Source: Tissierellia bacterium (GTDB taxonomy: Bacteria; Bacillota; Clostridia; Tissierellales; Tissierellaceae). From it: 44,141 bases of DNA. Within the stretch, counting starts at the first letter, position 1; the number at the start of each line of letters is the position of its first letter. The stretch spans positions 1 through 44,141 of the forward strand of contig JAAYTL010000049.1 of the NCBI GenBank assembly GCA_012518035.1, in the 5' to 3' direction. Both the position numbers and the translations under genes were made by a program. Below, one piece after another: positions 16,900 through 38,691 of the stretch. Below the pieces are notes generated by a model. That model ran no database searches. It worked only from the letters and a program-made list of their open reading frames with translations, and was not told the origin of the DNA.

Positions 16900-17190
16900 T
16901 AAAAAGCCTCTATCATATATCCATATAATAGAGGCGAAAGTTTCCGCGTTACCACTCTAATTTAATAGTATTTTTACAAATACTAAACTCACTAGGTTCT
17001 AACAAACCATCGCCTTATAATGTAGGCAAACATCATAACTTACTTAATTTCAGCTATGAGACTCCGAAGTGACCTATTATCTATCAAGCATAATACTGGC
17101 TCCCACCATACCCAGCTCGCTAAGATTAGCTTTTGATAGTTTTCTTCTTCTTCATAGTCTTTAACAAATTCGATTAAAAACTTACGATTT
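16900..17190 (-). ncRNA. T-box riboswitch leader of the liv operon, probable Val specifier
   Basis: On the minus strand the leader shows: a stem I base pairing CTATGA with TCATAG; the distal stem I block GCGAGCTGGGTATGGTGGGA (17101-17120); a candidate specifier GUC at 17071-17073, directly before ACTTCGGAG; the T-box AGAGTGGTAACGCGGAA (core 16944-16954), with UGGU in the bulge matching an A-discriminator tRNA; and an overlapping terminator GCCTCTAT...ATAGAGGC (16906-16935) followed by T5. Uncharged tRNA would stabilise the antiterminator and switch on livJHMGF. The T-box class is certain from the motifs; the Val reading of the specifier is an inference from its position. Confidence 0.9.
16901..16935 (-). 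terminator. Regulated terminator of the T-box leader
   Basis: GC-topped stem GCCTCTAT / ATAGAGGC with an AT-rich extension, followed by TTTTT on the minus strand. It is mutually exclusive with the T-box antiterminator just upstream. Confidence 0.85.
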
Positions 17191-32020: not shown

Positions 32021-32031
32021 GAGTGACTATT

Positions 32032-33855
32032 ATGGAAAGAAACCCCAATGTTACCTATGGTGAAATGTTAAACAGATTAATTAGGAATATAAGTAAACGA
32101 AATAGGATGATTTTCTTTTATTTTGCTATTTATACTATAGCAGCCTCCATCTATCCATTTTTTTCTATTATTATGCCCAAACTCCTAATCAGCGAATTAA
32201 CCCTGGTAGCAGGGGCTAGCTTAAACAAGATACTGATTATTACCCTAGGTTATTTTCTTTTGACTAGTATCTTTGGCTTTATACGTACCTTTATTCATGA
32301 TCTAGCCTATCCCATGATAACTAAACTAAGGATAGATTATCTAAGGGATGTGTTCGATAAGATTATAAGCATGGATTATAAGTACGCTGAAGATGCTAAC
32401 TTCTTGGAAGAAAACAATAGGGCTATGAGGGCAGCCAGCAGCAACGATGTAGGTATAGAAGGTATATATCATAAGCTCTTTGAAAGCATGGCTATATTTT
32501 TGACCATTCTAGCCCTCACAATTTTTATAGGGGCATTAAATCTATGGATTCTTTTTGGGCTTATTCTCAACATAATAGCTACAGTATATATAAATAATAG
32601 GGTACATGAATACCAATATGAAATGAAGGGTAAACTGGGCCATGCCGAAAGAAGGAAGAATTATTACTATAAGACAACCCATGATTTTGGTTACGGTAAG
32701 GATATTAGAATATATAGCTTAAAGGATAGAATCTTATCGAATTATAATAAGGAGATTGAAAATCTAGTTGCCCTACATAGAAAAATAAGAAACAAGGAGT
32801 ATTTATTGGGTTTTCTAGGCCTGGGGACTCTATTAATAAGTAGTTCCCTGACCTATGGCATCCTAATATATATGGCTTTTAATGGAATGACTATAGCGGA
32901 TTTTTCCATGTATCTTGCTGCCATAACCAACCTGTCCCTTCTAATGAAGTCTTTTGCAGATAATATCTCCTTTATTATCAGCGAAGGTAGGTATGTCAGG
33001 GATTTCTATGAATTTTTAGATAGGAATTTAGGTGGGTCAGGCGGTCACAGGGGTCCTATTGAGAATGATACCCTAGATATTGAGTTTAAGAATGTTAGCT
33101 TTAAATATCCTAAAACAGATAAATATATCTTTAAGAATCTAAATTTTAAGATCAACAAGGGTGAGAGGCTGGCCATTGTCGGGGTTAATGGGGCTGGTAA
33201 AAGTACCTTGGTGAAATTGATGACAGGACTCTTTGATGTCACTGAGGGGGAAATTTTAATAAACGGAGTCCCCATTAAAGAATTCAGTAAAAAAGCCCTC
33301 TACTCTATGTTTTCTGTGGTCTTCCAAGATGTAAATATATTGGCCTTTACTATAGCAGAAAATATAGCCTGTTCTTCAGATAACTTAGATAGGAATCGTA
33401 TCCTTACAGCATTAGACAGGGTGGGTTTAGGTCAAAAGATAAAGAATCTGCCTAAGGGCTTGGACCAAATGATGTTAAAGGTAATTGAAGAAGACGGAGT
33501 AGAGTTTTCCGGCGGAGAAAGCCAGAAATTAGTTATAGCCAGGGGGCTTTATAAGGATGCAAATATGGTAATCATGGATGAACCTACTGCTGCCCTAGAT
33601 GCCTTGGCAGAAGCAGAGATTTATGAGAATTTTAGCGAGCTGGTAAAGGGAAAAACTGCCCTATATATCTCCCATAGATTAGCCAGCACTAAATTCTGCG
33701 ATAAAATCATCCTTCTAGATAAGGAGGGTATTAGGGAATATGGTAGTCATGATGAGCTCATCAAGAAAAAGGGAGCCTATTATGAGATGTTTACCATCCA
33801 GGGCAAATATTACAATCAAGGGGGTAGCAAAGATGAAGCATATGCAGAAGCTTAA
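32032..33855 (+). CDS. ABC exporter half-transporter, first subunit
   Basis: 607 aa from the ATG at 32032 with AGGAG at 8-base spacing; a GTG at 32023 is upstream of it. About six membrane helices in residues 20-310, then an ATPase domain with Walker A GVNGAGKST (about 384-392), signature FSGGESQKL in place of LSGGQ, Walker B MVIMDEPTAALD with the catalytic Glu kept, and H-loop ISHRLAS. It belongs to the MdlB/lantibiotic-type exporter group. Together with the next gene, which overlaps it by 23 bases, it should form a heterodimer. The substrate is unknown; peptides or drugs are candidates. Confidence 0.88.
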   Translation: MERNPNVTYGEMLNRLIRNISKRNRMIFFYFAIYTIAASIYPFFSIIMPKLLISELTLVAGASLNKILIITLGYFLLTSIFGFIRTFIHDLAYPMITKLRIDYLRDVFDKIISMDYKYAEDANFLEENNRAMRAASSNDVGIEGIYHKLFESMAIFLTILALTIFIGALNLWILFGLILNIIATVYINNRVHEYQYEMKGKLGHAERRKNYYYKTTHDFGYGKDIRIYSLKDRILSNYNKEIENLVALHRKIRNKEYLLGFLGLGTLLISSSLTYGILIYMAFNGMTIADFSMYLAAITNLSLLMKSFADNISFIISEGRYVRDFYEFLDRNLGGSGGHRGPIENDTLDIEFKNVSFKYPKTDKYIFKNLNFKINKGERLAIVGVNGAGKSTLVKLMTGLFDVTEGEILINGVPIKEFSKKALYSMFSVVFQDVNILAFTIAENIACSSDNLDRNRILTALDRVGLGQKIKNLPKGLDQMMLKVIEEDGVEFSGGESQKLVIARGLYKDANMVIMDEPTAALDALAEAEIYENFSELVKGKTALYISHRLASTKFCDKIILLDKEGIREYGSHDELIKKKGAYYEMFTIQGKYYNQGGSKDEAYAEA

Positions 33856-35617
33856 AATCTTCTTTTCTATGGCTTGGAGTATCTCCCCTCCCTATATTTT
33901 AATGCTGGTATTAGATACTCTACTTCCAAGCCTTCACATATTTACTAATGTTATACTACCTAAATACTTAATAGATGAATTAACAGGTGGCATGAACAAG
34001 GATAGGCTGATACTCTTTGGTTCCCTGATAGTATTGTCAAATCTATGTTTTACCTTCTTAACCAATACCACTAAGAAGTATATGGAAGTTAAGAAAGTCT
34101 ATATGGCTGATAAGTTTAGCCAGGCCATGGCCAAAAAGATTATGAATGTAGAGTTTTCCTATTTAGAGAATCCATACTATCTGGACTTAAAGGAAAGGGC
34201 TGTATTTGCCATCAATAACCAGGGAACCCTACAAAATTTAATCAGTAACCTGGCCATAGTATTGAAGAATCTACTTACTATTATAGGATTGTTAGCCATA
34301 ATGTTTACCTTGAGCTGGATTTTGGTTTTATTATTAATAATTACCATCATAATATCCCTCTTGATATATAAGTCCTTTGTGGCCTATCAGATGAATTTTT
34401 TCCAAGAAATTATACCTGTAAACCGTAGGTATGGATACTATATGGGTTTTGCCTTTGATGAAAAAATTCAAAAAGATATTAGACTATATAATATGAATAA
34501 AATGATGATTGATAGGGTTACCTACTATAACAATGAAATCAACACCTGGTTCTCTGCCTATTACAAAAAACAGGGCTTGTTCCTAAGTCTATATGGGATA
34601 GTAAATGACTTACAGGCAACCCTAGCCTATGGTTATGTAGGTTTAAGGGTTATTTCTGATAGATTTGGGGGAAGGATTTCACTGGGTTCTTTCACCATGT
34701 ATGTTGCAGCTGCTATTAACTTTACTACAGCTACAGTGGAGTTAGGCTCCGGTCTGATGAGGTTGATACAGATGCTAGGTTATCTTGAACCCTTTGTGGA
34801 GTTTATGTCCCTTCCAGATGAAGATGTTAGAGAGGGTAGATTTGAGCTCACTGGTGATATTGAATCCATTGAATTTTCAAATGTATCCTTTAAATATCCA
34901 GGTAGTGACAGCTTAGTTCTTGAAGATATCTCCTTTAAGATCAAAAAGGGCGAAAAGATTTCCATAGTTGGACTAAATGGAGCCGGGAAAACCACCATGA
35001 TAAAATTAATCTGTAGGCTGTATCAGCCCACTAAGGGAAAGATTTTGATAAATGGTCGTGATGTTTTTGAATATGATCACAAGTCCTACATGGATAAGAT
35101 TGCTGCTGTTTTTCAGGATTATAAACTTTTTGCCTTTAGCATCGATGAAAACATCACCTGTAAGGAAATTAATGCTGACCCTGAAAGAACGAGAACCATA
35201 ATTAAAGAAGTAGGATTAAAGGAAAAGATTGATGATTTACCTGATGGTTTATCCAGCCTTTATGGAAAGGCTTACGACGATAAGGGGATTGAGATGTCCG
35301 GTGGAGAAGGTCAAAAAATTGCTATTGCTAGGGCCCTTTATAAGGATGCTTCCTTGATTATATTGGATGAGCCCACCAGTGCCTTGGACCCCTTAGCAGA
35401 AGCTGAAATCTACGAACACTTCAATAGTATGGTAGGAGACAAGACCGCCATCTACATCTCTCATAGGATGTCTAGCAGTGTCTTCTGTGATAGGATTTTA
35501 GTCATTGAAGGTGGTAAAATTTCAGCATATGATACCCATGAAAACCTACTTAAAAATAAGGATAGCCTATATGCTAAACTTTTCAACTCCCAGGCGGCAA
35601 ATTATGAATTAGCTTAA
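33833..35617 (+). CDS. ABC exporter half-transporter, second subunit
   Basis: 594 aa from the ATG at 33833, preceded by GGGGG at 8-base spacing; the open frame reaches back to 33740 inside the previous gene but without a start signal. About six membrane helices (20-320), Walker A GLNGAGKTT (about 380-388), signature MSGGEGQKIAIARAL, Walker B LIILDEPTSALD, and H-loop ISHRMSS. Both subunits keep the catalytic Glu, unlike heterodimers with one degenerate site, but both have unusual signature motifs. The 23-base overlap with the first subunit implies coupled translation. Confidence 0.88.
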   Translation: MKHMQKLKIFFSMAWSISPPYILMLVLDTLLPSLHIFTNVILPKYLIDELTGGMNKDRLILFGSLIVLSNLCFTFLTNTTKKYMEVKKVYMADKFSQAMAKKIMNVEFSYLENPYYLDLKERAVFAINNQGTLQNLISNLAIVLKNLLTIIGLLAIMFTLSWILVLLLIITIIISLLIYKSFVAYQMNFFQEIIPVNRRYGYYMGFAFDEKIQKDIRLYNMNKMMIDRVTYYNNEINTWFSAYYKKQGLFLSLYGIVNDLQATLAYGYVGLRVISDRFGGRISLGSFTMYVAAAINFTTATVELGSGLMRLIQMLGYLEPFVEFMSLPDEDVREGRFELTGDIESIEFSNVSFKYPGSDSLVLEDISFKIKKGEKISIVGLNGAGKTTMIKLICRLYQPTKGKILINGRDVFEYDHKSYMDKIAAVFQDYKLFAFSIDENITCKEINADPERTRTIIKEVGLKEKIDDLPDGLSSLYGKAYDDKGIEMSGGEGQKIAIARALYKDASLIILDEPTSALDPLAEAEIYEHFNSMVGDKTAIYISHRMSSSVFCDRILVIEGGKISAYDTHENLLKNKDSLYAKLFNSQAANYELA

Positions 35618-35618
35618 A

Positions 35619-35652
35619 AAGAGACAGCCATTAGAATACTTGGCTGTCTCTT
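35619..35652. terminator. Bidirectional terminator between the ABC operon and the HD-GYP gene
   Basis: Perfect 12-base-pair stem AAGAGACAGCCA / TGGCTGTCTCTT with a 10-base loop. The minus-strand side has TTTTT; the stem overlaps the last codons of the HD-GYP gene. Confidence 0.8.
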
Positions 35653-36437
35653 AAATCTACATTTATATTCGCAAGCTCATGGGCCCTTTTAAAATCTTCA
35701 TGGTACTCCATGAAAACATCCACCATTATAGGGTCAAAATGCTTGCCCCTCTGTTTACTGATTAATTGCAAGCTCTTAGCATGGGAATAGGCTTCCTTGT
35801 AGACTCTTTTTGAACGCAAGGCATCATAAACATCCACTATAGCCATTATTCTACCAGAAATTGGAATTTCTTCACCCTTTAATCCATAAGGATAGCCTGT
35901 ACCATCCCACCTTTCATGATGGGAAATTGTTATGTCCATACCCATTTCTAGGAAGGAGTTACCCTTATACTGACTATAGACTTCCTTTATAGTCTCATAG
36001 CCAATGATTACATGGTTTTTCATAATCTCAAACTCTTCAGCAGTAAGTCTTCCCTTTTTTAGGAGTATACCGTCTGGAATTCCCACCTTGCCTATATCAT
36101 GTAAGGGGCTGGCATTATAGATGTTTTCTATAAATGCATCATCTATCAAGGCCTTATACTTTGTGTATTTTCTCAAGTATATGGCCATCAACCTGCATAG
36201 GGTAGCGGTTCTTTCAACATGATTGCCAGTTTCATCATCCCTTGATTCAGCTAATTTTACTAAGGCGAAGATTGTAGCCATCTGAGCTTTGGAGATTTCA
36301 TTTACCTTCTCGTTAACAAGCTCTTCTAGATGATTTGTATAATTCTGGAGCATCTCCCTACTGATTAATAGCTCCTCGTTCTTTTCTTCGAACTTCTTAG
36401 ATAGCTCTGAATACTTTATCATTAAATCTGTCATCAA
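35631..36437 (-). CDS. HD-GYP domain phosphodiesterase, probably the 3' part of a split gene
   Basis: 268 aa from a TTG at 36437, but there is no ribosome site there and the same frame is open for 40 more codons, up to 36557, without any ATG, GTG or TTG. Residues about 1-55 form a coiled coil; the HD-GYP domain follows with HVERTATLCRLM, HDIGKVGIPDGIL, NHVIIGYETIKE, HHERWDGTGYP and AIVDVYDAL, all ligands intact. Such domains hydrolyse cyclic di-GMP. The upstream MBL gene ends in another frame inside the same open stretch, so both may once have been one sensor-phosphodiesterase. See the junction entry. Confidence 0.85.
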   Translation of the reverse strand: MMTDLMIKYSELSKKFEEKNEELLISREMLQNYTNHLEELVNEKVNEISKAQMATIFALVKLAESRDDETGNHVERTATLCRLMAIYLRKYTKYKALIDDAFIENIYNASPLHDIGKVGIPDGILLKKGRLTAEEFEIMKNHVIIGYETIKEVYSQYKGNSFLEMGMDITISHHERWDGTGYPYGLKGEEIPISGRIMAIVDVYDALRSKRVYKEAYSHAKSLQLISKQRGKHFDPIMVDVFMEYHEDFKRAHELANINVDLRDSQVF

Positions 36438-36534
36438 TCTAGTAAGATTATGGCTATCAATCTGGTCGGCAAACCTATCTAGCTGAAGCTTATAAAAATC
36501 ATCTATTAGGTTGTCATTATTTTCTATGTCTAAA

Positions 36535-36557
36535 CTAACGATGGCTAAGACCCCTTT
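36535..36557 (-). other. Probable frameshift junction between the MBL and HD-GYP frames
   Basis: The MBL frame stops at 36535-36537 (TAG), while the HD-GYP frame is closed upstream only by a TAG at 36558-36560. In the 23-base overlap lies a GGGG run (36551-36554). Removing one G would join YYLLER to LAIVSLDIENND and give one protein of about 590 residues. A loss-of-frame mutation, a sequencing error in the homopolymer or recoding could explain it. Confidence 0.65.
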
Positions 36558-37374
36558 CTAATAAATAATAGTCAAACCCAATATGCTCCTCTTTCTTCAA
36601 TAGGTTAATTAGATAGTTTAAATCTTCCTTTGAATCAATCAGGCTACCATGTTGGGGTGCTACTAATACTGGATCTATTCTTTCTATTTGCTCTAGGGCA
36701 TATCTCAAAGAAGCGGCGGAATTCATCTTCCGTCTATGAAAATCCAAGATTCCATGAACCTTACAATCCCTCTTACTTATTGGACAGGTCTTTTGAGTCT
36801 CACAATCTTTGCACTCCTGGGGTATGGAGCAATATAAGCTCCAATTTATATCATAGCTCCCAAATATGTCACTGGAAAAAAGGGTTTTCGTTTTACAATC
36901 ATAGGTTATAAAACTGCCCGCTTCATGGACATAAGGAGTCTGGTAAAACTCGAGTCTTCGTCCACTCTTTAAGGTATAGGAATATCCTAAATCTTCAATG
37001 CAGAGTTTGGGAGTTTTTGTGGAATAATAATTGATGAAAACATTATTCTCCTTGTGGGAGATAATCTTTAACTCTGGATTATCTATAATGCCTTCTAGAT
37101 GGGGTAAACTTCCACATAAATCTGGATCAGTATGATGATAAATCAGGGTAGTTATATTCTTAGGATTTATACCAAGTCTTAGAATTTTCAACATAACTGT
37201 ACTGAAGTCTTCTCTACTTCCCCCATCAATGAGGACTACTTCCTCATCTTCCACAATTATATAGGGATTACAATGTAAGCCTGCCTTGTCATCATTAAAA
37301 CCTACCCAATAGATTCCATTTGCTATTTTAATTGATTCAAAGTAGTCTAAATCATTATTTATTATATCGGCCAT
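36535..37374 (-). CDS. MBL-fold di-iron protein (ODP-like oxygen sensor domain)
   Basis: 279 aa. Metallo-beta-lactamase fold of the flavodiiron type without the flavodoxin domain. Ligand positions: His81, Asp83 and Asp85 (HTDPDL; the family has HxExDH, so Glu became Asp and the last His is Leu86), His150, Asp169 (FSSDIFG) and His242 (APQHGSL). A Cys cluster, C188-C191-C197-C204, lies between Asp169 and His242. Proteins with this domain bind O2 at a di-iron site and are fused to signalling domains (ODP). The loss of one His fits a sensor better than an O2 reductase; this is inference. The ATG has AAGGAG upstream. Confidence 0.8.
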   Translation of the reverse strand: MADIINNDLDYFESIKIANGIYWVGFNDDKAGLHCNPYIIVEDEEVVLIDGGSREDFSTVMLKILRLGINPKNITTLIYHHTDPDLCGSLPHLEGIIDNPELKIISHKENNVFINYYSTKTPKLCIEDLGYSYTLKSGRRLEFYQTPYVHEAGSFITYDCKTKTLFSSDIFGSYDINWSLYCSIPQECKDCETQKTCPISKRDCKVHGILDFHRRKMNSAASLRYALEQIERIDPVLVAPQHGSLIDSKEDLNYLINLLKKEEHIGFDYYLLERGLSHR

Positions 37375-37455
37375 TCTATTCTCCTTATTAATATGAAATT
37401 GTCCTCATATTACATTATAACTAAGTTTAGGTTTATTTTAAAGATTTTGAACAGA

Positions 37456-38691
37456 TTAATTGGCTTTACAGTAGGCATCGATTGAGTCAGCTACATTTTT
37501 GGCTCTTACAACTGCTTCAACAACAGTCTTAGCCCCTGTCACAACGTCACCTGATGCAAATACACCCTTCCTTGTGGTTTCACCTGTTTCACTGGTTAAT
37601 AATAATCCACATGTTGTTGTATCAAAACCCTTGTTATTAACGACTATATTATTCTTTGGATTTTGGCTGACAGCTATTATCACAGCATCACATTTAAATA
37701 AGCTTTCTGAATTCTCTATCTCTTTTAGTAGTTTTTCGCCATTTTCATCAACTGCTATTTCAGTTTTTCTATATATAAGTCCTTCATCTACTATTTCTAC
37801 AGGTGTCTTAAACAGCTCGAAGTCTATTCCCTCATCCTTGGCTTCTTCTATCTCGTGCCTTGTTGCTGTCATGCTCTCAAAATCTCTCCTATAGATTATA
37901 CTAACTTCTTTGACTCCGTTTCTTTTCGCTGTCCTAGCTGCATCCATGGCTGTATTACCGGCACCGATAACCGCTACCTTATCACCTAGACTATATACCG
38001 ATGGAGACTTTAAATAATCAATAGCATAGTGAGCATTACCTAAACTTTCTCCCTTAATATTTAAAGTCCTAGGATTCCATACTCCTGTACCAATAAAAAT
38101 CGCCTTGTAACCATCTTCAAATAGCTTGTCAATGGTTAAGACAGGTCCTATTAGGGTATTGGGTCTAATCTTAACACCTAACTCAATCAACATATCATGA
38201 AACCTGTCCAATACATCTTTGGATAATCTAAAGTCTGGAATTCCATATCTTAAAACCCCACCTATTTTCTCGTTGGTTTCAAACATGGTAACCTTATAAC
38301 CCCTACGGGCTAATGTTACAGCTATAGTTAACCCTGCTGGGCCAGAACCTACTATGGCTATTCTATCCTTATTAAGTTCACTTGGTTTTATTTGGACATT
38401 TCTTAAGTATTCCGTAGAAATCTTCTCTTCCATTTTATAGAAGTCTATCGGTTCTCCCTTTATTCCCTTGATACAATTCCCCTTACATAGGTTTTCATGG
38501 GGACAAACAACTGCACACATGGCAGAAAGAGGATTGTTGTCAAATAAAATCTCCCCAGCCTGTTGGAGATTATCTTCCCTTATCAATTGAATAATCTCTG
38601 GTATGGGAGTGTTAATTGGACACATTTCCATACATCTTGGCTTTTTACACAATATACACCTATTTGCCTCATCAATTAGCTCTCGATACAT
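37456..38691 (-). CDS. GltD-like NAD(P)-dependent FAD/Fe-S oxidoreductase
   Basis: 411 aa. The N-terminal iron-sulfur domain has CILCKKPRCMEMCP and CAVVCPHENLCKGNC (residues 12-75), followed by FAD Rossmann motif IAIVGSGPAGLT and NAD(P) motif VAVIGAGNTAMDAARTAKR, ending ASGDVVTGAKTVVEAV. This is the small-subunit architecture of glutamate synthase, the electron-input subunit PreT of dihydropyrimidine dehydrogenase, and NfnB. No large partner is adjacent, so its electron acceptor is unknown. The start ATG has only a weak ribosome site. It is probably transcribed alone. Confidence 0.88.
   Translation of the reverse strand: MYRELIDEANRCILCKKPRCMEMCPINTPIPEIIQLIREDNLQQAGEILFDNNPLSAMCAVVCPHENLCKGNCIKGIKGEPIDFYKMEEKISTEYLRNVQIKPSELNKDRIAIVGSGPAGLTIAVTLARRGYKVTMFETNEKIGGVLRYGIPDFRLSKDVLDRFHDMLIELGVKIRPNTLIGPVLTIDKLFEDGYKAIFIGTGVWNPRTLNIKGESLGNAHYAIDYLKSPSVYSLGDKVAVIGAGNTAMDAARTAKRNGVKEVSIIYRRDFESMTATRHEIEEAKDEGIDFELFKTPVEIVDEGLIYRKTEIAVDENGEKLLKEIENSESLFKCDAVIIAVSQNPKNNIVVNNKGFDTTTCGLLLTSETGETTRKGVFASGDVVTGAKTVVEAVVRAKNVADSIDAYCKAN

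Follow-up and report, generated by a model that had tools for sequence, protein, structure and literature searches.

Two overlapping minus-strand genes in the 44,141-nucleotide stretch of DNA analysed here (the window) form, with a probability that we put at roughly 0.6, a translationally coupled two-gene module, in which the product of the first gene, a sensor of the ODP family, would dock onto the product of the second, an HD-GYP phosphodiesterase, the synthesis of which would begin at AUC. The initial annotation had treated the two frames as one gene, split by a surplus G, for an oxygen-sensing c-di-GMP phosphodiesterase. Much of the underlying description was confirmed, namely the coordinates of the MBL (here, ODP) and HD-GYP frames, both on the minus strand; the 23-bp overlap of the open frames around a GGGG run (36554-36551); and the lack of ATG, GTG or TTG over 40 codons of the HD-GYP frame, where the first such codon is a TTG at 36437 (codon 41). 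Neither this TTG nor the ATG that follows it is preceded by a Shine-Dalgarno (SD) sequence (+0.5 and +0.4 kcal/mol, respectively). A point missed earlier is that the GGGG run is part of a good SD, at a suitable distance from an in-frame ATC (36542-36540). The idea of an ODP-like di-iron sensor tied to an HD-GYP output can thus be retained as an inference, whereas that of a single split gene cannot.

Table 1. Positions of the features of the gene pair and its flanks.
Feature	Position	Strand	Remarks
ODP-family di-iron MBL gene	37374..36535	minus	279 aa, begins with ATG; proposed sensor of oxygen or redox state
SD of the ODP gene, AAGGAG	37381..37386	minus	anti-SD duplex -8.2 kcal/mol
HD-GYP frame, stop to stop	36557..35631	minus	308 aa
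HD-GYP gene from ATC	35631..36542	minus	303 aa; PF13487 and PF01966; 8-nt overlap with the ODP gene
SD of the HD-GYP gene, AAAGGGG	36551..36557	minus	within the 3' end of the ODP gene; -8.1 kcal/mol, spacing 6
ATC, probable non-canonical start of the HD-GYP gene	36540..36542	minus	position of the ATG/TTG of relatives
Helical N-terminal module, HD-GYP protein	36339..36542	minus	about 68-75 aa; proposed docking/transmitter segment for ODP
HD-GYP catalytic domain	35730..36260	minus	PF13487 match
Four-cysteine insert of ODP, CKDCETQKTCPISKRDC	36763..36813	minus	residues 188-204; might bind Fe-S or Zn
Promoter-like site TTTAAA-17-TATAAT	37414..37442	minus	5' of the pair; consensus match only
Hairpin, 11-bp stem, A/T runs on its flanks	35620..35651		likely bidirectional terminator between convergent genes

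Promoter-like consensus matches such as the one 5' of the pair numbered 19, compared with 13 expected by chance. Farther upstream, on the same strand, lies a gene identified by eye as a GltD-like oxidoreductase (37456-38691); an ORF with a similar C-terminus is also found upstream of the pair in the relative L002, suggestive of a conserved gene order. On the other side, the hairpin at 35620-35651 (arms AGAGACAGCCA/TGGCTGTCTCT) separates the HD-GYP gene from a convergent ABC transporter gene, and the stop codon of the HD-GYP gene lies in the loop of this terminator-like structure. With its listed ATG, the second of two ABC transporter ORFs (33740-35617) overlaps the first (32023-33855) by 116 nt and likely has a later start. 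Elsewhere in the window, a T-box leader was detected on the minus strand (16927-17164, 106.4 bits).

The family to which the initial annotation assigned the first protein is confirmed: the ORF matches PF19583 with an E-value of 2.4e-52 (178.1 bits, cut-off 27.2), and the solved structures that best match its profile are 6qrq (2.2e-25) and 6qnm (2.6e-21), ahead of flavodiiron enzymes. The ligand motifs HTDPDL, PYVHEAG, SSDIF and QHG line up with those of 6qrq and yield a positive result in the di-iron motif test; the ODP ligand consensus HxDPDL, PYxHxxG, SSD and QHG is retained, and H150, D169 and H242 are intact. Flavodiiron enzymes carry HxExDH where ODPs have HxDPD. In the window protein, examined as a possible flavodiiron protein (FDP/FprA), a flavodoxin domain is absent and the motif is HTDPDL rather than HxExDH. 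Judging from these matches, the product is a probable oxygen-binding di-iron protein. An AlphaFold model of ODP, built from two sequences, was of low confidence (pLDDT 59). The protein additionally contains an insert of the form C-x2-C-x5-C-x6-C, which distinguishes the ODPs with an HD-GYP or cyclase partner (12 of 12) from those that stand alone or are fused to GGDEF-REC (0 of 8); an Fe-S cluster or zinc might be bound there.

The second ORF matches PF13487 (HD_5; E = 3.7e-31, 108.6 bits, cut-off 27.2) as well as PF01966, again as initially annotated, and its best match among solved structures is 4mcw (4.4e-49). The motifs HDIGKVG, HHERWDGTGYP and DVYDAL are intact and the HD-GYP motif test was positive, so by its sequence the product probably destroys c-di-GMP. 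The genome encodes 12 GGDEF and four HD_5 matches, which makes c-di-GMP turnover and signalling plausible in this organism; no c-di-GMP-I riboswitch was found in the genome, and control genomes likewise gave none. The HD-GYP protein is cytosolic and lacks a recognisable sensor domain; it has only the helical N-terminal module. A profile of this module (A2) was found in exactly the genomes that encode this ODP, 8 in the set of relatives and 3 in the class set, where the genome of the window is counted in both sets and the members found helped to build the profile; an independent match was obtained in L044 (E = 4.6e-17). We propose that ODP docks on this module or transmits its signal through it.

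Among 100 relatives searched, seven other genomes proved to encode an ODP of this subfamily (52-71% identity), and wider searches added G342 and G352 from the class and G832 from the phylum; the relatives that carry the pair are ten in number (L002-L008, L037, L038 and L044). All ten encode ODP in full as an ORF of its own (275-328 aa as open frames), and the HD-GYP gene lies directly 3' of it in another frame, overlapping the ODP stop by 1-14 nt, mostly as ATGA, TAATG or TTGA. The HD-GYP gene starts with ATG in nine relatives and with TTG in one (L044), in each case behind an SD with a duplex energy between -5.8 and -11.7 kcal/mol and a spacing of 3-7. The HD-GYP proteins of L007 and L008 contain an added PAS domain, and that of L044 appears similar by eye.

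The same arrangement can be recognised in the window. Located 6 nt ahead of the in-frame ATC, AAAGGGG forms a duplex of -8.1 kcal/mol with the 16S tail, comparable to the values in relatives (all energies were computed with a generic anti-SD sequence, and spacing follows the measure of the tool). The ATC aligns with the start codon of the relatives, as do the residues encoded next with the N-termini of the relatives' proteins. Between the ATC and the TTG, 18 of 34 residues are identical to those of L002, and changes are in excess at third codon positions (p = 0.003 against L002, p = 0.04 against L003 and p = 0.004 against L004), i.e. these 34 codons appear to evolve as coding-like sequence. 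The organism is also likely to initiate translation at an AUN codon, since in its genome infC (L058, G000:C123), although a special case, seems to begin with an ATT preceded by AGGAGGT. Given the SD, the aligned start position, the coding-like stretch and the ATT of infC, the sequence as it stands is most simply explained by an AUC start of the HD-GYP gene. This codon initiates translation poorly and is normally discriminated against by IF3, and therefore the HD-GYP protein could be made at a low level or not at all.

The explanation favoured by the initial annotation, a single fused ODP-HD-GYP protein, either produced through slippage or a programmed +1 frameshift at AGGGG or masked by an extra G in the sequence, draws on the 23-nt frame overlap, where deleting one G from the run would merge the frames, but it is highly improbable. 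The annotation had pointed to homologues as the arbiter, and the one-gene reading fails because, in ten of ten relatives, the genes are separate and the HD-GYP gene has its own start and ribosome-binding site. No ODP-HD-GYP fusion was detected in the genomes searched (the relatives, class and phylum sets), where the sole ODP fusions found are to GGDEF-REC, and the G run is accounted for as the SD of the HD-GYP gene. Frameshifting is further opposed by the RNA structure at the junction, which is not unusual (z = 0.28), and a run of four G is short for slippage.

With two genes established, the ATC itself allows two other explanations. The start codon might have been lost recently, leaving a very young pseudogene or a down-regulated allele with weak or silent HD-GYP expression, perhaps of a product truncated from the TTG at 36437 or the ATG at 36434. 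The 40 codons devoid of a canonical start fit this possibility, as does the C-terminus of the window protein, which exceeds that of most relatives by about 11 residues and reaches into the terminator hairpin. However, the SD of the HD-GYP gene is intact, coding constraint is retained upstream of the TTG, and the two internal starts, which lack an SD and would cut the conserved N-terminal module, were rejected as candidates. We also compared the changes at invariant sites, defined from the other nine sequences (84 in ODP and 91 in HD-GYP). The window departs at 4 of the 84 ODP sites, compared with 1-5 in intact relatives, and at 4 of the 91 HD-GYP sites, plus the start residue, compared with 1-6 in relatives with canonical starts; the HD-GYP frame of L038, which is cut by a contig end, shows 8 departures. 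The dN values of the window pair are similar to those of the relatives, whereas dS is saturated, so that dN/dS is not usable. These normal change counts and the similar dN, together with the retained motifs, speak against the recent decay of the pair that had been considered, and at the sequence level neither protein shows a sign of it; we regard loss of the start codon as quite unlikely. An error of assembly or sequencing at base 36540, with an ordinary start in an ordinary two-gene pair, is unlikely too, although less so: ATC differs by just one base from the ATG of the relatives, the assembly is a draft of 131 contigs, and the rest of the HD-GYP gene looks intact, whereas the genome is reported to be 99.72% complete and the pair shows no further damage.

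Under the two-gene module with an AUC start, the AAAGGGG in the 3'-terminal part of the ODP gene would position ribosomes that finish ODP, and these would start HD-GYP just ahead of the ODP stop, probably at AUC in this case, and such coupled translation would yield matched amounts of the two proteins. The stand-alone ODP would bind O2, or else report the iron or redox state, and O2 or oxidation at its di-iron site would alter its contact with the helical module and so switch c-di-GMP hydrolysis. Phosphodiesterase activity might be high without O2, the direction being a guess by analogy with the hemerythrin-HD-GYP protein discussed below. If the ATC start is real, it is a rare natural AUC initiation site, one at which automated gene prediction would shorten the gene or overlook it.

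Pairing of this kind might extend beyond HD-GYP. In L035 (4127-5810), a MAG labelled Deltaproteobacteria, a gene for an adenylate/guanylate cyclase ends within the frame of a four-cysteine ODP. Among 793 ORFs, the N-terminus of this cyclase scored E = 0.019 against the helical module of the HD-GYP proteins, a weak likeness that is only suggestive of homology. It is conceivable, albeit doubtful, that the four-cysteine ODP subfamily is a swappable oxygen/redox cassette, in which a separate sensor serves effectors (HD-GYP, PAS-HD-GYP and perhaps nucleotide cyclase) through a helical docking module, with the natural AUC setting effector synthesis in the window.

Both protein families are already known, and so is di-iron control of HD-GYP via hemerythrin. 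Our literature search, judged by title and abstract and with most subscription journals outside its scope, returned nothing that points to an ODP or MBL protein working with HD-GYP. Among solved structures, the ODPs 6qrq and 6qnm align without the four-cysteine insert of the window ODP, and the HD-GYP structures 4mcw/4mdz/4me4 share the HD-GYP domain (E = 4.4e-49) and match only from residue 80 on, such that the helical N-terminal module is left uncovered. The ODP-GGDEF-REC fusions, proteins of about 670 aa with a C-terminal receiver in three genomes (L039, L040 and L050), likewise join an ODP to an output domain of the c-di-GMP type, but as a single polypeptide (GGDEF plus receiver) that lacks the four-cysteine insert. 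In Bhr-HD-GYP of Ferrovum sp. PN-J185, a hemerythrin is fused to HD-GYP, which is active only when ferrous (PMC9388753). There, a non-heme di-iron oxygen/redox sensor is known to govern an HD-GYP c-di-GMP phosphodiesterase, as we propose here; the sensor of Bhr-HD-GYP, however, has the hemerythrin fold and is covalently fused, whereas that of the window is an MBL-fold ODP from a separate gene. The ODP of Treponema denticola (TDE2498) is a characterised oxygen sensor coupled to an adjacent receptor without a sensing module of its own (PMC7666581). This system, ODP/TDE2496, resembles the window pair in its stand-alone ODP, HxDPD-type motif and genetic coupling to a sensor-less cytosolic effector (PMC7666581), and differs in its output, a chemoreceptor as opposed to an HD-GYP phosphodiesterase. 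The conserved ODP and HD-GYP pair would extend the ODP precedent to c-di-GMP control and would provide a directly testable sensor-effector pair.
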